From positions 23,171,754 to 23,235,753 of the forward strand of contig CAIIXF020000011.1 in assembly GCA_903813345.2 (NCBI GenBank): a DNA stretch of 64,000 bases, in the 5' to 3' direction. The notes below the pieces were generated by a model. That model was not told the DNA's origin. It made no database searches and saw nothing but the letters and a program-made list of their open reading frames with translations. The position numbers and the translations under genes were made by a program. The DNA comes from Owenia fusiformis (Eukaryota > Annelida > Polychaeta > Sabellida > Oweniidae). This document shows positions 2,123 to 32,175 of the stretch, piece by piece. Numbering within the stretch: position 1 is the first letter of the stretch; every line of letters starts with the position of its first letter.

Positions 2123-5100
2123 ATGTCTGATCATGAGTCAGATGATGAACCCATGGAGCCACCGGTGTGGTTCAAGTCTGCAGCCATGAATAGGAGAAAA
2201 TCAAGTTTTATGGATAGGTAAATTCACAAAGATCTATAGCATTTTCAAAACGATTCCCTTTTATCGCACTTTGAGAAAGTTTTATGTTGTCGTCGTCGTT
2301 ACCTTGTGCTGCTGGGCTGGCGGGTGTATGGTCCGGTGGACGGCATATAAATCTTGTCATCAAAATTCCAAGAAAATCGCAAATCCGCTAATTTTTTACA
2401 TATACCACAAGGGCAGACTGGTGCCAAGATATTATTATTCCGTGAAGGTCTTGCTTTCCAAAATTTGCAAGAGATGCGCAGCATTAAGTGTTAACTCAAG
2501 GAAACAATGCCTGAAAGGAATGGTCATTTCACATTTGCACCGAGTCTTGGGCTTAAATTATTTTGACACATTGCAAAATATTCGGTGATTTGTGATATAA
2601 TGCACTGCAGTTATATGAAATACTGTGTTCGGATTGGCTGGAATCGGACACACCAGTTGCCTAGCTATGTGTGAATTCAATTCATTTACCTCATGCAAAA
2701 TCAAAAGAATGGTATAGCCTGTTACAATCTCCAGTCAGCCAAGTATTTACCTTTAAAGTGGTTCTGAAAATTGTGGCAAAACAGTGATTTACGATACAAG
2801 ATAAAATTATTTCTATTCAATTACAATACTCCCTCTTTCACCACTTAAAGCGGAACCGTTTAATATAATTATTAACGTGTATTAATAACGTGTATTAATA
2901 AAATCCTGAAAATTCTATCTATTGATGATGAACCCATGGAGCCACCGGTGTGGTTCAAGTCTGCAGCCATGAATAGGAGAAAATCAAGTTTTATGGATAG
3001 GTAAATTCACAAAGATCTATAGCATTTTCAAAACGATTCCCTTTTATCGCACTTTGAGAAAGTTTTATGTTGTCGTCGTCGTTACCTTGTGCTGCTGGGC
3101 TGGCGGGTGTATGGTCCGGTGGACGGCATATAAATCTTGTCATCAAAATTCCAAGAAAATCGCAAATCCGCTAATTTTTTACATATACCACAAGGGCAGA
3201 CTGGTGCCAAGATATTATTATTCCGTGAAGGTCTTGCTTTCCAAAATTTGCAAGAGATGCGCAGCATTAAGTGTTAACTCAAGGAAACAATGCCTGAAAG
3301 GAATGGTCATTTCACATTTGCACCGAGTCTTGGGCTTAAATTATTTTGACACATTGCAAAATATTCGGTGATTTGTGATATAATGCACTGCAGTTATATG
3401 AAATACTGTGTTCGGATTGGCTGGAATCGGACACACCAGTTGCCTAGCTATGTGTGAATTCAATTCATTTACCTCATGCAAAATCAAAAGAATGGTGTAG
3501 CCTGTTACAATCTCCAGTCAGCCAAGTATTTACCTTTAAAGTGGTTCTGAAAATTGTGGCAAAACAGTGATTTATGATACAAGATAAAATTATTTCTATT
3601 CAATTACAATACTCCCTCTTTCACCACTTAAAGCGGAACCGTTTAATATAATTATTAACGTGTATTAATAACGTGTATTAATAAAATCCTGAAAATTCTA
3701 TTGTTTTAGGGTAACGTTGGAGGCTGCGATACAAAGACGTCGCTCCAGTGCCCTCATTCCTCCAAGGCGGGAAGACTTAGAGATTAAGGCGAACTGTCCT
3801 GTCTTGTACCTCAGCAAACGCAATCCACAATGTAGGATAGTATGGCTGTATCTTTTACAGGTAAGTAACGTTTATGTCAAAACATGGAATTCAATATTTT
3901 TCTATTTTTGAAAATGGAAGAATAAAATGGTTCATGATTGGGAACATTGGAAGAAGTAGAGGTTATACATTTAATGTTGGGAGTTTTGTTTCCCTCTTTT
4001 TATTTTCTGAAAAAAAAGAAATCTAAATAAGTATGCTAAAGTAACTAAAGGAGGAGGTAGATTGCATCAATATGTTGTGTTTTGACACACAGATAATCCC
4101 TTTAAAGGAATAAGTGATTCCTTTAGTTTAAGTCGAAAACAATATTTCCCATTTTATTTTTCCATAGGGAAAACTCATGCAATCCATTGCTTTCAGTTAA
4201 TTTTGGTCACCCATAATGGATATCTTTAAAACCTCCGAAGGAATCACTTATTCCTTTAATGGGGTTAACTTTGTGTCAAAACACAACATATTGATGCAAG
4301 AAAAATTGGTTGGGTGGAAGGGGTGGAATTTCAGGGGTGGAAGGGTTTGAAAATCAGGAAAACATTTCAGAAGAAACATGTGGGTGGATTGTTTGCATCT
4401 TCCCTGTCTCAAAGTCGAAATTATTTTATCATCTCTAGGAGTGCTTTTCCTGGAGGTAATGCATTGGTCTAACATATGCACCTGTTTAAATCCTCAGAAA
4501 ATAGCCAAAATTCAACATATGACTGTCCAAAATCTGTTGCGATACTTTCCCTCCTCCTTTATTAAAAGTGGGATATCATATCCCGTTTTCTTTTTGTGCT
4601 TGATAACGTTAAAATCGAAGGATTATCCTAACATGAAGTCTGAACTGATGGACTATTTTTGATAAGTGAAATACCTCATCCTCATCCCATTTAGTTGCTT
4701 TTGTTAATAAACAAATTAGGGAAATAATTAAAGTGCATAAACTTATCTTGAATCTCGGCTAGTTCAGAGAAAAATAGTTTGAAACACGATCATTTACTAC
4801 TTCTGTTCAGAATTCAGATACCAGAAGTGTCATAAACATCAATAGTTCAAACTATTCGACCATAATTTCTTTGTTTGTTAATATTAATGATGAGATAATC
4901 TCCATGGCAATGGTAATTTACGCCAATTGATCTGTGGACTGGACACTTCAAACAGCGACAGTTCAATCCTGTAGCAGAGATTAGATTTACCCGAACACAA
5001 TGAATTAAATGATGACTTGCCAACTACATTATAATCGAATAACGTTAATTTATTGACATTAGTTTTCAAAGGAAATAACAGAGAAATAAGGACATGACAA

Positions 5101-8100
5101 TTTCAAATTAATTATGTATTTTAAACCTACATATTTATTGTATCATATACCTGAGATATTTAAACGATAACACATTTTTCAATTTAAAGAAAACTTCAGT
5201 AACTTAAGAGCGAGGTCTGATTTCTCGTTATACATTTATAAGGTCCTGAACATCTCTTGAATGAAAAAATTGGTTATTTTTGTTTTCCTTCTCAAAATGT
5301 CACAAATGAAAATGGGTATTCATACATGTCACAACATTTTTCCTAGATTTTGATGGGGTTTGTTGGTTTTTGTTCATTAAAGGTATCCTTAATCATTGTG
5401 AGCACGAAATCAAGAGGCTTCAAGGACGACACTATATATTCCGTATTCCTATATATTTCCCATACATGCATTGTAGAATAATATAACACACGAGATAGTT
5501 GATGTTGATGACGGAGCAGCTGAAACAACAGCATCTCTGCATTCCTGCAATCCCCATGGCTCAACCCCAACATTGTCTGACAGCGATGTAGTAGTCTTTG
5601 AAAAGTAGGTCAACTTTCATTAATAACACCTCACAAAACAACGGCATCTCTGCATTCCTGCAATCCCCATGGCTCAACCCCAACATTGTCTGACGGCGAT
5701 GTTGTAGTCTTTGAAAGTAGGTCAACTTTCATTAATAACACCTCACAAAACAACGGCATCTCTGCATTCCTGCAATCCCCATGGCTCAACCCCAACATTG
5801 TCTGACAGCGATGTAGTAGTCTTTGAAAAGTAGGTCAACTTTCATTAATAACACCTCACAAAACAACGGCATCTCTGCATTCCTGCAATCCCCATGGCTC
5901 AACCCCAACATTGTCTGACAGCGATGTATTAGTCTTTGAAAAGTAGGTCAACTTTCATTAATAACACCTCACAAAACAACGGCATCTCTGCATTCCTGCA
6001 ATCCCCATGGCTCAACCCCAACATTGTCTGACGGCGATGTTGTAGTCTTTGAAAAGTAGGTCAACTTTCATTAATAACACCTCACAAAACAATGGCATCT
6101 CTGCATTCCTGCAATCCCCATGGCTCAACCCCAACATTGTCTGACGGCGATGTTGTAGTCTTTGAAAAGTAGGTCAAATTTCATTAATAACATCTCACAA
6201 AACAATGGCATCTCTGCATTCCTGCAATCCCCATGGCTCAACCCCAACATTGTCTGACGGCGATGTTGTAGTCTTTGAAAAAAAGGTCAACTTTCATTAA
6301 TAACACCTCACAAAGCAACGGCATCTCTGCATTCCTGCAATCCCCATGGCTCAACCCCAACATTGTCTGACAACGATGTTGTAGTCTTTGAAGAGTAGGT
6401 CAAATTTCATTAAAGTCCCCGTCTAAAGTTTGAAAATATTTTTTTATCATTCATTTACTATTTGTCAGGACTTAAAAAGTGATTTTAGAGATTTTTGAAC
6501 AAAAAAAATTTTTTGAAAAAAAAGTTGTGAGCATTTCATTTCTCAAATATTCAAATTTCCCGCCATTTTTCCAAAAAAGTTGAAATTTCTTAATCATCAA
6601 ATATTTCTTAATGCATTTCAAAAAAGATTATCTTTTTAACACAAATGCAAAGGTTGAACAAAGGACACACTATTTCAATAATAAAATGCCATATTTAATG
6701 GGCCACTTCAATGTTTTAGCATATAAAAAATATTTTGAAACATTAGTGATGTCACTAAGGTACCAAAAACTTTTTGAAAAAAATTGAACTTTTTTTTTCT
6801 ATGTCAATCTTTTCTAAATATGTTAGACTTTCATAAAAACCAATGTTGATTGTCTAACCAGGTTAAAAGGAAGAATAAATTATGTTTTAGATATCATTGT
6901 ACCATTGGTTTCTATGAGAACTAAAATTTTGAAATGCATTTTTCTCAGAACCATTTTCATGCACTGATAAGTTCATTTCTCGCTTATTTATGAACCGATT
7001 TTCTTAATTTTTTCGGCAAAAAACACGGGAGGATAAATGCTATGCATTGGTATGAATTTTGGCTAATTAGAAGATATGAGTGACCTTTTAAAGTTGGTTT
7101 TAAATAAATTCACAAATTTTGGAACAAAAAGTCTATCAAAAACCACTTTTTGAAATTTAAAAAAAAAGTTTCACATATCACACTTTGATAACATTGGGTA
7201 AGACTACAATATAAGCCAAAGTGGTTTAAACTTTATATGGGGCCTTTAATAACACCTCACAAAACAACAGCATCTCTGCATTCCTGCAATCCCCATGGCT
7301 CAACCCCAACAATGTCTGACGGCGATGTTGTAGTCTTTGAAAAGTAGGTCAACTTTCATTAATAACACCTCACAAAACAACGGCATCTTTGCATTCCTGC
7401 AATCCCCATGGCTCAACCCCAACATTGTCTGACGGCGATGTTGTAGTCTTTGAAAAGTAGGTCAACTTTCATTAATAACACCTCACAAAACAACAGCATC
7501 TCTGCATTCCTGCAATCCCCATGGATCAACCCCAACATTGTCTGATGGCGATGTTGTAGTCTTTGAAAAGTAGGTCAACTTCATTAATAACACCTCACAA
7601 AACAACGGCATCTCTGCATTCCTGCAATCCCCATGGCTCAACCCCAACATTGTCTGACGGCTATGTTGTAGTCTTTGAAAAGTAGGTCAACTTTCATTAA
7701 TAACACCTCACAAAACAACGGCATCTCTGCATTCCTGCAATCCCTGCAACAAGGTATATTTTTAAAATGACTTTGAACTGATTTACCAGTATGTGAACTT
7801 AATAACTCACAACTGCCACAAACCATTGAACCAAACAAAATGAGAAATTATTGTAATGAATTTGAACAAACTACACGAAGAGAAATCTCCATGTATTTGT
7901 TCTCTGAAAATAATCTTGTTTGTTTATTTGTGCAGCCCTGCAGTGTTGTACTATCTATCAGAGAGGTACACCAATGGTCATGGTATGGGAGCCAATAACA
8001 AGGTGAAATATAAGGCGGAGTCGATAATGAACTGGGCTGCTGCATCACTTTACAGGTAATAACAATTAATATTCACAGTAAAACTTAAAAGTCTTAGTTA

Positions 8101-9018
8101 ACACCTCTTTCTTGGGAACACCTGTCTCAAGTGGACATATTTCCTCCGTATATACTGTACTGACTTCTGTATTAGCCTTCTGTAGACTAGTGAACACCTA
8201 CACACGCCGAACGTTTTTTCTTGGCAAAGAAATTTCAATTTACACAGGTTTTACTGTATTGAGACTTATTGATCAACCCTCGTATTATACAATTGTAAAA
8301 AACATCCATGAAGTGAAAAATTACATTTCGATTCTTAACATGTCTCATGAAATCTTAAATCGTTGGTTTATCTTATAATGAGGACATAAATTAATTAATA
8401 CCAAAATTTTCAGGAGTGTGATCACCAATTACGTTAACCCTAAAGTAGCTCGCCAGGAATTTGAAGATTTGTTGACCAATAAGGAGCTTTCTCACCTGGC
8501 TAAGACGGAAGTACGTGAGCATCTCAATGCCATGGAGACGCAGTATCTACAGAACCATAAATACATCACAGGAAATGAGCGTAGGTGTTCAAAATTAACT
8601 TGAAAAAACGATCAGCTGCTATTGTCTCTCCTCGAACTAGTTGATGATAAACTGAGTGGGCAGAATAACTCTTTTATTTTTGGATATTATTTCCTGTCTA
8701 TTTAACTCAAAATTTCGTTTAAAATTGGTTACATGGAAATACATGTTTTTCTAACATTTGTTTATAATCATTATTGCACGTAAGACTGCATAAAATAATT
8801 CTATATTTTCTTGTATTGCAGCATTGTTTGTAGACCACTACGTTGCAATGATTGTAACAATGTTGGACTTGGTCAGCTATGACTTTAAACAATTCCCTAA
8901 AGTTAAGGCCTGGTTACAAAATGTGAAACTTCTTGATAAGCAACATTGGGAGCTAGTTAATGAAACACATAACTTACAAGTAATACAACGGGGAAGTAGA
9001 CGAGCTAGTTACCTCTAA
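2123..9018 (+). CDS. Glutathione S-transferase homologue (theta-like), 6 exons
   Basis: Exons inferred from GT-AG sites and frame: 2123-2217, 3710-3860, 5477-5604, 7936-8055, 8414-8580, 8822-9018 (stop TAA); they sum to 858 nt, 285 aa. Residues about 62-137 look like the GST thioredoxin-like domain: VLYLSKRNPQCR at 63-74, NPHGSTPTL with the cis-Pro at about 113, then DVVVFENPAVLYYLSERY. Residues about 150-265 look like the all-helical C-terminal domain (DFKQFPKVKAWLQNVK). The family conjugates glutathione to electrophiles in the cytosol. Oddities: the theta catalytic Ser aligns with Asn69, the usual G-site Glu-Ser is Glu-Asn, and an N-terminal tail of about 60 residues carries RRKSS and RRRSS, which match basic-directed kinase sites. 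It may be a divergent or non-catalytic GST. Start chosen as the first ATG (2123, A at -3); the same frame upstream has only TTG. Exon 3 is joined by frame logic, so transcript support is lacking. Confidence 0.82.
2141..3701 (+). repeat. Recent 778-bp direct tandem duplication over GST exon 1
   Basis: Units 2141-2918 and 2924-3701 are separated by the 5 nt CTATT. I see only two substitutions between them by eye (A/G near 2715 and C/T near 2792), about 99.7% identity. The unit carries 77 nt of coding exon 1 and most of intron 1. The second exon-1 copy keeps its 5' splice site (ATGGATAG|GTAAAT) but has no AG acceptor in front of it, so it should stay intronic. Confidence 0.95.
4063..4298. mobile_element. 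Palindromic MITE in GST intron 2
   Basis: A 236-bp element with inverted arms of about 65 bp. It opens with TGCATCAATATGTTGTGTTT and closes with the reverse complement. The arms continue through a shared AAAGGAATAAGTGATTCCTT block, itself a partial palindrome. No coding potential and no convincing TSD were seen. Confidence 0.75.
5532..7770 (+). repeat. 113-bp tandem array derived from GST exon 3
   Basis: Thirteen copies start at about 5532, 5645, 5757, 5870, 5983, 6096, 6209, 6322, then 7271, 7384, 7497, 7609 and 7722 (the last partial). The period is 113 bp (112 where one base is lost). Copy 1 is the 3' part of functional exon 3 (5532-5604) plus the first 40 nt of intron 3. Each unit therefore contains 73 nt of coding sequence, the GTAGGT 5' splice site in most copies, and a short intron tail. 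The period is not a multiple of three, and the coding frame meets TAG just after the donor. Copies differ by only a few bases. The array is split by an insertion at 6414-7245. Confidence 0.95.
6414..7245. mobile_element. TTAA-flanked non-autonomous element (piggyBac-like MITE)
   Basis: An 832-bp AT-rich insertion that interrupts the repeat unit exactly, with the target TTAA present on both sides (6410-6413 and 7246-7249). The ends are imperfect inverted repeats: AGTCCCCGTCTAAAGTTTG on the left and AGGCCCCATATAAAGTTTA reading in from the right. TTAA duplication is the hallmark of piggyBac-type transposition. No transposase reading frame is present. Confidence 0.7.
8075..8257. mobile_element. 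Mariner-like MITE in GST intron 4
   Basis: Ends ACAGTAAAAC and GTTTTACTGT are inverted repeats with TA at the right border. The interior GAACACCTGT and GTGAACACCT motifs recall the copies at 31229-31410 and 60246-60432. It lies wholly within the intron between exons 4 and 5. Confidence 0.55.
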
Positions 9019-16510: not shown

Positions 16511-18473
16511 AGCTCACATGGTGAGCTTTTGCAATCACTCACTTGTCCGTCTGTCCGTCCGTCCGTCTGTCCGTCCGTCTGTCCGTCAACAATAGTGGCA
16601 CGTTTTAAAACCTCTGTCGATAGGATTCCTGTTTTAAGTTATTTCTGTTCAACATCAATACAGAAAACCCCCCTATGACTCCTGGTATAAAAGCTCGCCT
16701 ATTTTCAAAATGGCTGTCACTTTTGTCTCGCGAAATTCACTTTTAGCCCATTTCCTAGCTAACCTCTGTCGATAGGATTCCTGTTTTAAATTATTTCTGT
16801 TCAACATCAATACAGAAAACCCCCCTATGACTCCTGGTTCAAAAGCTCGCCTATTTTCAAAATGGCCGTCACTTTTGTCTCGCAAAATTCACTTTTGGCC
16901 CATTTCCTAGCTTTACAAATAATTTCAGGTGTCCTACATTGTAAAAATCCATGTCAATGTAAAGATTAGATATATGAAATAATTTTGTTACAAAAAATCA
17001 GCGAAAAATTGTATCCATTTTTTTATTTTCAGCCATTTTAGTTAACATTGATTTGTCTATCTGACTCGCGAAATCCACTTTCTGTCAATAACAGTGGCAT
17101 GTTTTAAAACCTCTGTCGATAGGATTCCTGTTTTAAGTTATTTCTGTTCAACATGAATTCAGAAAACTCCCCTATGACTCCTGGTTCAAAAGCTCGCCTA
17201 TTTTCAAAATGGCCGCCATTTTTGTCTCGCGAAATTCACTATTGACCATTTCCATTTCCTAGCTTTACAAATAATTTCAAGTGTCCTACATTGTAGAAAT
17301 CCATTGCAAAGTAAAGAGTAGAAGTATGAAATAATTTTGTTACGAAAAATCAGCGAAAAATTATATCCATTTATTTATTTTCTGCCATTTTAGTTAACAT
17401 TGATTTGTCCATCTGTCTCGCAAAATTCACTTTTGGACCATTTACCTTAAACCCTCTGTCGATAGGATTCCCATTTTAAGTTATTTTTGTTCAACATCAA
17501 TACAAAAAACTCTCCTATGACTCTTGGTTCAAAAGCTCGGCTATTTTCAAAATGGCCGTCACTTTTGTCTCGCGAAATTCACTTTTGACCCATTTCCTAG
17601 CTTTACAAATAATTTCAGGTGTCCTACATTGTAAAAATCCATGTCAATGTAAAGGGTAGATATATGAAATAATTTTGTTACAAAAAATCAGCGAAAAATT
17701 GTATCCATTTTTTATTTTCAGCCATTTTAGTTAACATTGATTTGTCTATCTGACTCGCGAAATCCACTTTCTGTGGCACGTTTTAAAACCTCTGTTGATA
17801 GGATTCCTGTTTTAAGTTATTTCTGTTCAACATCAATTCAGAAAACTCCCATATGACTCCTGGTTCAAAAGCTCGCCTATTTTCAAAATGGCCGCCATTT
17901 TTGTCTCGCGAAATTCACTTTTGACCCATTTCCTAGCTTTACAAATAATATCAAGTGTCCTACATTGTAAAAATCCATGTCAATGTAAAGAGTAGATGTA
18001 TGAAATAATTTTGTTACAAAAAATCAGCGAAAAATTATATCCATTTATTTATTTTCAGCCATTTTAGTTAACATTGATTTGTCCGTCTGTCTCGCAAAAT
18101 CCACTTTTGGACCATTTACCTTAAACCCTCTGTCGATAGGATTCCAGTTTCAAGTTATTTTTGTTCAACATCAATACAAAAAACTCCCCTATGACTCCTG
18201 GTTCAAAAGCTTGCCTGATTTCAAAATGGTCGCCATTTTTGTCTCGCGAAATTCAATTTTGGCCCATTTCCTAGCTTTACAAATAATTTCAGGTGTCTTG
18301 CATTGCAAAAAGCCATGTCACTGTAAAGAGTAGTTGTATGAAATAATTTTGTTACAAATTATTGGCAAAAAATTATATCCATTTTTTTTTCAGCCATTTT
18401 AATTGACTGAGAGACAGATGGCTTGAAATAATTTTGAAACAAAAAATCAGCAAAAAATTATACCATGTGAGCC
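16511..18473 (+). mobile_element. Repeat-cored element with about 340-bp tandem units
   Basis: Opens AGCTCACATGGTGAGC, a small hairpin followed by a TCCGTCTG microsatellite, and closes ACCATGTGAGCC, complementary to the start. The core has tandem units beginning CCTCTGTCGATAGGATTCC at about 16612 (short), 16765, 17110, 17455, 17791 and 18129. Each includes CTCGCCTATTTTCAAAATGG and TTTGTCTCGCGAAATTCACT. Layout resembles the tandem-core elements widespread in bivalve genomes, which some authors link to Helitrons; that classification is inference. Confidence 0.7.
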
Positions 18474-18914: not shown

Positions 18915-21900
18915 ATGTCGGAGGAAGAAACTACATCACTTCAAAATATGGAGTTTGGTTCTATGGATGAAACTGGACCCCCTAGAGAAGGAAGCTCTAC
19001 GATGACTGAGGCACTTGATGATAAAGGGAATACTCTAACAGGAGGTAAGTGCCGTTTTTAAGGCCATGGTGCATGTTCAGAATTTTTCTGCATTCCTCAA
19101 TTGAGTCACATGTTATTTTTCAACCAGGAATCACTCCTTCCCCACATTGTCTACATCTTCCAGTTTTGCACAAAGAGTGCACTTATGTGCCTAGAAAAGA
19201 CTGGTGAGAAGATTTGTTTTGTAAAATGTATAAAAAACGAGAAAATTCAGTGAAAAAATTCAGAAAATTTGTTCACTGAATTTTCTTGTTTTTATACATT
19301 TATCAAAATATTCTTCTTTACATTCTTTTCTAGGTACATTAGTGCACTCGTTGTGCAAAAGTGAGAGATGTAGACATTGTGGGGAAGGAGTGTTTCAAAT
19401 TTGAAAAATAACATGTGACCCTGTTGAGGGTTGCAGCAAAATTCCGAAAATGCACCCTGACCTTAAAGGTTATTTTGTTTTCCTCAACAATATGCTAAAT
19501 TCTAATTTTACCTGTTCTAGCTAATATATATCTACTGTAAATAAATGATTAGTGGATTTGCTGAAATGAGGATTTCCCATGTTTAAAATAAGAGAATTTT
19601 CAAGAGGCCATACGAGAGTAGACAAAATGTAAAATATACAAATTTTAGGGAAAATGTACATGTATTTAGACAGTATCTGAGACTGGGCTTTCACCACCAA
19701 GGTTTGGAAGTGGTGATGGAAAATCGACTTCTGATTTATTTACTATAGTTAATACAACTATAAGTGACATTTTAAAGCAATAGCTTTATTTTTTTCAGTG
19801 ACAATTCTATTGGATGATGGAACTGAGCTGACTGGAGACATGGGGTCATGTGCAGGGGTCATAGGGCAACCAGTGACAATAGAATCTGAAGAAACAAGTA
19901 AGGCATCGAGCTGCATAACACTGTTAAATTTAGTTTACTGTACGCCCGGTATTATTCGCGTGCGATTAACTTTCGCGCTTTTCGCGATGGTGTTAAAATC
20001 GCGAAAAATTATCGTCGCGAAATTGCCAATTAAATCCCCGGGAATTTGTTTTTACCCGGGGCTCTGATGCATTTCGTCAACTTCTGATCCCTCCATTCCT
20101 ACATCTGTAAGAAGAACTACAAAATGCATTTCGTTTTGTGTAAAACGTTTCGTCTAGTGTTATTGGGCGATAATTGGATGATTTCCACCAACATGTCTAT
20201 TTTACGTTGGCTAGTCAGGCCAACTACTACCAATGGGCCTAGGCTCAATAATGACATCGACGATATTATAGAAACTGAAGTTCAAATTGCTAAAAATGAC
20301 ATGAAGTCCAAGCGTGGAACATATAAAGTGTACAACGACGCAGAAAGGGCAAACATAGCCCGGCACGCACTTCTGAACTTGTGAAATTCGCGAAATTTAA
20401 TAGCCGCGAAACCGTGTTTTCGCAAAATTCGCGAAATTAAAGCTCGCGAATAATACCGGGCGTACAGTATTGAAAGCATGATTAACTAATCATATTCGTA
20501 TTAATCATTTTGCCAGGCTATAGTCAGATTCAGAATCACTCTTTTACGAATTGATGAATTTATATTCTGAATTGTTTTGTGATTACAGGCCAAACACAGA
20601 GTGAAAACCAAACATTGCAAAGTCTACTGGCGCGCAGCTCTAATGTGATAGCAGTTAACCAGGAGGCAGGAGGTCTTGACCAGTTGGAATACCAGATCAT
20701 CACTGTTCCAAGCTCTGAGCTCCTTACTGCAGATGGTAGGCTTTATCTAAACAGTTTATGTGTCTATATGTATAACTTTTTGTGTTTTTTATCGCACCCT
20801 AAGGTGCTATATTGTAATCAGTTTGCCGTGCAGGCGGGCGGGTGGGCATCCCGAATAATCTTGTCTACAGGTTTCCAGCCAAACCATTTGAGGGATTCAT
20901 TTGAAATTCTTAGGGATGTTTCTACCTATGAAAGTTAAGAACGGATTAGTTTTTCGGCATTCTGGGTAAATGTTAAGGTGGCCATTTTGGATTTTCCTTC
21001 CTAAAATCTTGTCTGTCAAGGCTTGTCTACAGGTTTCCAGCCAAACCGTTTGAGGGATTCATTTGAAATTCTCAGGGATGTTTTTACCTATGAAAGTTTA
21101 GAACTGATTAGTTTTTCGGCATTCTGGGTAAATGTTAAGGCGGCCATTTTGGATTTTCAATCCTAAAATCTTGTCTGTCAAGGCTTGTCTACAGGTTTCC
21201 AGCCAAACCGTTTGAGGGATTCATTTGAAATTCTCAGGGATGTTTCTTCCTATGAAAGTTTAGAACTGATTAGTTTTTCGGCATTCATTTAATAAACATT
21301 ACCAAACATTACACAGTATTAAATTGAATTATTGTTTTTATTATTTTCATGTTTTAAACTTATCACTTTTACATTTATATCTGAGCAGGAGGGAAGGTGT
21401 GGCAGGTATTGGCCAATAACGGTTCAACAGAGGGAGCCACTATAGTTGCACTAAGTCAAGATGGCACTCAGAAATTACAAACAGGTAATAAATTATTATT
21501 ATCTAGCTTGTCTATTAACTGATAAGTTATTTCTGTTCTTCAACCATATTGACATCCAGCATTCAGAGTTCGGCACATGTGACAAATGGCAGGTGGAATC
21601 ATTTTGCATGCTATTGATTAATTATCTGATCATCCCTTTCCTTCATTCATTTTACATATATATTTGTTTAATAAGGGTATAATTGAAAGTGGGGGAAAGG
21701 TTACAAAATTCAAAAATTGCTTTATCCAAGATTACATTCTGACCTGATGACTGCAGAAATACATTTGAAATTTGGTATACCTTTATTTGTAGAAGATACA
21801 AATAGGTGACACACACTTTACAGGATTTTCCTGTATATTTCTCGACAGGGAGTTTGCAATTGAAAATGATATTTTACACAATTTTTCTGTTTTTTCAGAT

Positions 21901-31814: not shown

Positions 31815-32175
31815 GACAGTGTCTGGTAATCTTACAGTTTGCGGTAATCTGATAGTGTCCGGTAATCTTACAGTTTGTGGTAATCTGATTGTGTCTGGTA
31901 ATCAGACAGTGTCTGGTAATCTTACAGTGTCTGGTAATCTGATAGTGTCTGGTAATCTGACAGTTTGTGGTAATCTGATTGTGTCTGGTAATCAGACAGT
32001 GTCTGGTAATCTTACAGTTTGTGGTAATCTGATAGTGTCTGGTAATCAGACAGTGTCTGGTAATCTTACAGTTTGCGGTAATCTGATAGTGTCTGGTAAT
32101 CAGAGAGTGTCTGGTAATCTGACGGTTTCTTATAATCTGACAGTTTCTAGTAATCTGACAGTTTCTGGTTTAAGT
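31815..32175 (+). repeat. 18-bp minisatellite, about 20 copies
   Basis: Units of the form GTCTGGTAATCTGACAGT alternate between variants (GTCTGG or GTTTG(C/T)GG; CTGAT, CTTAC or CAGAC). The period is a multiple of three, so a 120-residue open frame of SGNLTV-type repeats appears on the + strand. It lies only 72 bp downstream of the GOLGB1 stop codon, on the opposite strand. Confidence 0.92.

Follow-up and report, generated by a model that had tools for sequence, protein, structure and literature searches.

A minisatellite built from an exon end and its donor splice site in a GST gene of the annelid Owenia fusiformis

The window analyzed here, a stretch of 64,000 nucleotides from Owenia fusiformis, carries on its forward strand a GST gene (GST-A) whose six exons, joined at GT donors and AG acceptors, form a spliced open frame of 858 nt (285 codons plus stop). 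These are exon 1 (coding part, 2123–2217; donor TAG|GTAAAT), exon 2 (3710–3860), exon 3 (NNITHEIVDVDDGAAETTASLHSCNPHGSTPTLSDSDVVVFE; 5477–5604), exon 4 (7936–8055), exon 5 (8414–8580), and exon 6 with the stop codon (8822–9018). The encoded protein matches Pfam PF13409 (27.8 bits), PF02798 (24.5 bits), and PF00043 (28.6 bits), all above the curated cut-offs, with GST_N and GST_C domains in one reading frame, which identifies the host gene as a GST. GSTs in the PDB align with the protein across the joint between exons 3 and 4 (best E 9.7e-11). Exon 3, placed by the spliced frame, Pfam, and the PDB alignments, ends at a phase-2 donor at 5605 (AAA|GTAGGT), for which exon 4 is the putative partner.

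The 3′ end of exon 3 is the first copy of a head-to-tail minisatellite with a 113-bp unit, detected by TRF in two stretches (5523–6413 and 7246–7744) with 96% matches; the unit is slightly longer than the 15–100 bp range given for minisatellites in one source (PMC3618361). With unit boundaries set from the first base common to the exon and the copies, each unit comprises 82 nt of exon 3 end (5523–5604 in the exon itself) and 31 nt of intron 3 start (5605–5635), and thus holds an exon end, a donor, and an intron start, as produced by duplication across a single exon–intron junction. The first-pass annotation had traced the unit to the end of this GST exon plus intron, which is borne out, although its division into 73 and 40 nt is not. 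It had also placed 13 repeats downstream of the exon; that number includes exon 3 as copy 1 (5523–5635), leaving 12 downstream copies, of which the last is a 30-nt stub without a donor. In the copy alignment, which needs few gaps, the copies start at 5525, 5638, 5750, 5863, 5976, 6089, 6202, 6315, 7264, 7377, 7490, 7602, and 7715, all on the forward strand, and the 12 longer copies have a mean pairwise difference of 3.8%.

Copies 2–8 (5636–6409, where copy 8 is split by a mobile element) have GTAGGT donors at 5717, 5830, 5943, 6056, 6169, and 6395, and the rest of copy 8, copies 9–12, and the stub copy 13 (7246–7744) have donors at 7344, 7457, 7570, and 7682. Of the 11 downstream copies long enough to include the donor, 10 therefore retain GTAGGT, nine of them with a 9-mer identical to that of the real donor; the exception, the copy starting at 6202, reads AAAGGT. 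Retention of the donor in most copies, as first proposed, is confirmed, and the proposed dozen or so decoy donors come down to ten. A whole-assembly search with one unit (skipping very common words) returned 13 matches, all at the GST-A locus, and detected no copies outside it, which argues against a dispersed satellite with no relation to GST. Together, the assembly search, gene model, domains, copy alignment, and donors support the original proposal that an exon fragment with its 5′ splice site was amplified into a 113-bp array.

The two stretches of the array are separated by a mobile element of ~0.83 kb (6410–7249, no strand assigned) inserted in copy 8, which is missing from the first-pass description. 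The element is bounded by TTAA on both sides, its short inverted ends are recognizable by eye, and removal of the element with one TTAA restores a normal copy 8 in the copy alignment. Using an 840-base query that begins and ends with the two TTAA, the best 40 of 2794 candidates scored include 39 other places at 96–98% identity, of which 36 align along the full 840 nt; the TTAA at both ends and the many full-length copies make the element MITE-like by sequence. The presence of array copies on either side is most simply explained if the element inserted after the array had formed. Another copy of this abundant element is located at C3:33303862–33304701, between exons 2 and 3 of a paralogous gene (GST-B).

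Exon 1 of GST-A is also affected by a duplication across its donor. Two tandem copies of a 783-bp unit occupy 2141–3701 of the forward strand (2141–2918 vs. 2924–3701; 2 mismatches in 778 aligned nt), and the unit starts 77 nt before the end of exon 1, takes in the donor there, and runs ~700 nt into intron 1. Use of the second exon 1 donor, at 3001, is predicted to lead to a stop after 32 residues. The full-length 783-bp unit was not found elsewhere in the genome; part of its intron (about 2431–2683) matches a dispersed repeat.

As the first-pass annotation had anticipated for the downstream donors, use of any of the ten decoys in the 113-bp array is predicted to introduce an in-frame stop, at the TAG overlapping the real donor, so that the protein would end at residue 125; this stop would lie 395 to 2360 nt upstream of the last junction. 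Early stops trigger decay. The AACAG reported at 7271 and 7497 and put forward as a possible acceptor is indeed present in copies 9 and 11 (starts 7264 and 7490), although it makes a weak acceptor. It is preceded by 11 pyrimidines in 23 positions, compared with 12, 14, 15, 16, and 16 for the real acceptors of GST-A, and so falls short of the weakest of these by a small margin only; its use would give a 73-nt pseudo-exon, a frameshift, and a predicted stop after residue 140. The AACAG, which is the AG scored in the unit, occurs in 2 of the 12 downstream copies, and the donor in 10 of 11. Moreover, AACAG is the base that exon 3 itself has at this position, and we reject it as a newly acquired acceptor on this ground and on its few pyrimidines and frameshift. 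Given that AACAG is pyrimidine-poor and that its use shifts the frame, the downstream copies appear to be essentially donor-only fragments. Under exon definition, fragments that have a donor but lack a good acceptor are not defined as exons. The array copies would therefore be expected to be mostly ignored in splicing and to stay in the intron, and most GST-A transcripts should join 5604 to 7936.

Variation among the downstream copies is similar in the exon-derived part (14 of 80 sites variable) and the intron-derived part (5 of 33; P = 1.0), and non-synonymous changes account for 7 of the 12 coding-frame variants, where 71% would be expected, although with so few variants the power of this comparison is low. 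Since the exon part varies like the intron part and the non-synonymous share is near expectation, nothing in these low-power comparisons points to selection keeping the GST-A copies. The copy closest in sequence to exon 3 is copy 3, with a difference at one of 113 sites, and not the adjacent copy 2, with four, as exchange between exon and array could produce. Sites 6 and 66 occur in all four combinations among exon 3 and the copies, which implies either exchange or repeated mutation. At one codon, exon 3 reads AGC (Ser), whereas GGC (Gly) is found in 8 of the 11 copies downstream; GST-B likewise encodes Gly, and in the five PDB alignments shown this site is Gly in three (all GST E14) and Asp in two (delta). 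Exchange could have run in either direction, as AGC may be ancestral and GGC the state of the array.

GST-B, on C3, is the nearest paralog found and the only other place that matched GST-A exon 3 when the genome was searched with GST-A at E values of up to 10; the last exons were matched 7.5 kb further on. Its exon 3 (L032 1531–1661) ends at the same phase-2 junction as that of GST-A; exon 2, exon 4, and a fused last exon were also located. GST-B has its own array here, comprising 9.3 copies of a 45-bp unit (C3:33308375–33308792, equivalent to L032 1619–2036; TRF, 86% matches) made of its own exon end and donor, with the intact exon first and a TAA in frame right at the donor; GTAAGT is present at six of the eight downstream donor positions. 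A query of four units (180 bases) from this array had no match outside the GST-B locus, and no exon copies were identified in the other 11 GST_N loci, each taken as about 3 kb. The GST-A and GST-B units (113 vs. 45 bp) share only chance-level matches of 6–8 nt, and the arrays differ in extent as well. Because period, extent, and sequence all differ, the two arrays are most simply separate events, and we reject their common descent as units on period and sequence, although each may have been re-seeded repeatedly from its own exon.

We surveyed the best-scoring candidates of five other families, with the tables read by eye: myosin (94 matches), AMP-binding (PF00501; 14, all long), kinesin (131, being 148 rows less 17 decoy rows), p450 (108), and ABC (PF00005; 25). 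Among these 372 profile matches, which are not one-to-one with exons (12 myosin rows are one exon cluster, and many p450 matches are long exons), one array was found, in a kinesin gene; the survey covers arrays that hold a scorable piece of the profile, and GST-B, chosen as a paralog, stands outside the count. No arrays of this kind were seen among the myosin, p450, ABC, and AMP-binding matches. The myosin cluster (C9:37986009–37994334; L058 in part) gives 12 profile matches to nearly the same stretch of the myosin head; in the five members examined, visual inspection suggests complete alternative exons, each with a splice site at either end.

The kinesin gene, on C2, shows 18 copies of profile stretch 290–327 at 158–159-bp spacing among the 148 kinesin matches, and profile search and sequence reading place the array of this 159-bp unit at C2:23266345–23269188 (equivalent to L047 446–3289). 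Here, the unit consists of an intron 3′ end, an acceptor, and ~120 nt of exon start, with ccatag|ATTCACTAGG in each copy; the intact exon closes the array, and each of the 17 copies before it runs into a TAA. Two of the 10 variants in this array are non-synonymous compared with 76% expected (P = 0.0003), and two of eight when variants private to the intact exon are left aside (P = 0.004). The kinesin copies carry early stops, and their translation is not expected; the synonymous bias would be expected if the copies had been taken from a coding exon at various times, hinting at exchange between exon and array. The same test was run on three arrays, of which kinesin is the one with a bias (14 of 20 variants are non-synonymous in the GST-B array, and neither GST-A nor GST-B has a synonymous bias of the kinesin type). 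As the GST arrays show no such bias, the case for exchange would rest mostly on one array of the three tested.

Tandem arrays with a period of at least 40 and at least four copies make up 13.1% of the 100 kb of the genome sampled, all of it in 4 of 10 pieces. In the 10-kb stretches L050, L051, and L056, arrays of 145-bp, 99-bp, and mostly 48–49-bp units occupy 61%, 32%, and 35%, respectively. Six-frame reading of the seven other tandem repeats of the window, by eye, gave no convincing edge exons. A 338-bp array (16724–18401, 4.9 copies) and a 162-bp array (20860–21286, 2.6 copies) have no edge exons recognized by eye; an 18-bp repeat (31815–32169, ~20 copies) has one frame open throughout, as a six-residue repeat.

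The most probable explanation of the GST-A array, in which we place good though not full confidence, is that it is a splice-junction minisatellite that arose by tandem duplication across one junction, then grew, and has been nearly silent in its effect. The initial duplication would have captured exactly one exon–intron junction, namely the 3′ end of exon 3 with its donor, and would then have expanded to 13 copies, probably by unequal exchange. The copy at the outer edge would keep the whole exon and the real donor, and the other copies would leave with the intron. Such a duplication could survive almost silently because one intact exon stays at the edge of the array and the rest is buried in the intron; the inner copies would be removed with the intron, since their donor is not paired with an acceptor good enough to define an exon. 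Exon 3 would meanwhile stay within reach of exchange with its own array. A single process, working from either side of an exon, would account for the 45-bp array of GST-B, the 783-bp duplication of exon 1, and the 159-bp array of the kinesin gene, with the intact exon expected as the first copy if the unit contains the donor and as the last copy if it contains the acceptor. An intact exon at the expected edge is found in all three multi-copy arrays (GST-A, GST-B, and kinesin), and the kinesin acceptor array is the mirror case that the splice-junction idea predicts. The genome is rich in tandem arrays, and therefore such junction duplications need no special purpose.

Nevertheless, if placement were blind, arrays at the same junction of two paralogs would be an unlikely coincidence (about 1 in 372), so that selection, or a local weakness common to both genes, may have played a part, and the GST-B donor array at the homologous junction is a hint of function. 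The decoy donors could be imagined to have a job, in line with the first-pass suggestion that the array might tune splicing or trigger decay, although we regard this as unlikely: the array would draw U1 snRNP or pair unproductively with the exon 4 acceptor, and destruction of the pre-mRNA that retains the intron or carries a premature stop would set the level of GST. Consistent with such a role, the ten intact decoys match the real donor exactly or almost so and each is predicted to bring in a stop at least 395 nt upstream of the last junction, a separate donor array is present at the corresponding junction of GST-B, and decoy-mediated intron retention is a described mechanism (PMC8706089). 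However, the known decoy exons are noncoding exons with splice sites, whereas the acceptor of the GST-A copies is weak at best, with the tested AG in 2 of 12; the copies are without sign of constraint (at low power), and the donor has already been lost in 1 of 11 copies in GST-A and 2 of 8 in GST-B.

The other explanations are far less probable. An assembly error that multiplied one copy is very improbable: the array is known here from the assembled sequence, yet 9 of the 11 longer downstream copies have a private variant, the mobile element is present in one copy only, and two more arrays of the kind stand elsewhere (GST-B and kinesin). Even less credible is that the copies are cassette or mutually exclusive exons that offer alternative versions of the exon end. 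An AG does precede the fragment in two copies, and the myosin gene of this genome has a cluster of apparent whole alternative exons; the 113-bp unit, however, lacks the 5′ end and acceptor of the exon, and the GST-A copies are almost identical (3.8%), in contrast to the diverged myosin exons. The cassette reading is rejected on frame, which the 73-nt pseudo-exon shifts. Least plausible of all is a pre-existing satellite later taken into the gene as coding sequence, which we reject because, common as tandem repeats are in this genome, no other copy of the unit was found in the assembly search, and the unit codes for a segment of the GST fold whose alignment to known GSTs continues through the splice junction.

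If the GST-A array is a splice-junction minisatellite, a wider proposal may be entertained, for now only tentatively and with considerable doubt: that splice-junction minisatellites are recurrent in this genome, form on both sides of exons, and exchange with the living exon, and that the parallel GST donor arrays are an example under selection. Were this so, the evolution of coding ends and splice sites would be concerted in part with that of an intronic reservoir, which would also supply spare splice sites for new introns or regulated donors. Arrays in which an exon end plus splice site is repeated ~9 to 18 times constitute a natural series of near-identical competing splice sites; they could, with RNA data, inform on the choice among equal donors or acceptors, on intron gain, and on the rewriting of exon ends by exchange. 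How new introns and alternative splice sites originate has long been asked, and the source has been identified in few cases, according to the account in PMC4974935.

In the literature searched, mostly outside subscription journals, we found no earlier report of a minisatellite made of an exon end plus a splice site. Like the GST-A array, the intron 1 repeat of an earthworm metallothionein gene is a minisatellite in an intron of an animal gene, but the part of that report available to us describes its repeat unit without mention of an exon or donor (PMC12783039). Decoy exons in intron retention likewise place extra intronic splice sites in competition with the real ones; those described are exons with their own splice sites (PMC8706089), whereas the GST-A copies offer a donor and at best a weak acceptor. 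The tandem copies of a 24-bp AGGT exon segment in fission yeast (cited in PMC4974935) are also short exon-derived repeats with a splice motif in each, but the segment, as cited, is purely exonic and became an intron, whereas the unit here crosses an existing junction. For duplication of a junction itself, a two-copy case is known, that of the potato RdRp gene (PMC4974935), and it is for the multi-copy form, the junction minisatellite, that no earlier report was found. The potato segment resembles the arrays described here in that it crosses a single splice junction and carries the parental splice signals; it differs in being present in two copies, on the 3′ splice side, with a new intron evident from RNA, whereas the arrays of O. 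fusiformis have ~9–18 copies, occur on either side of the exon, and are described at the DNA level.
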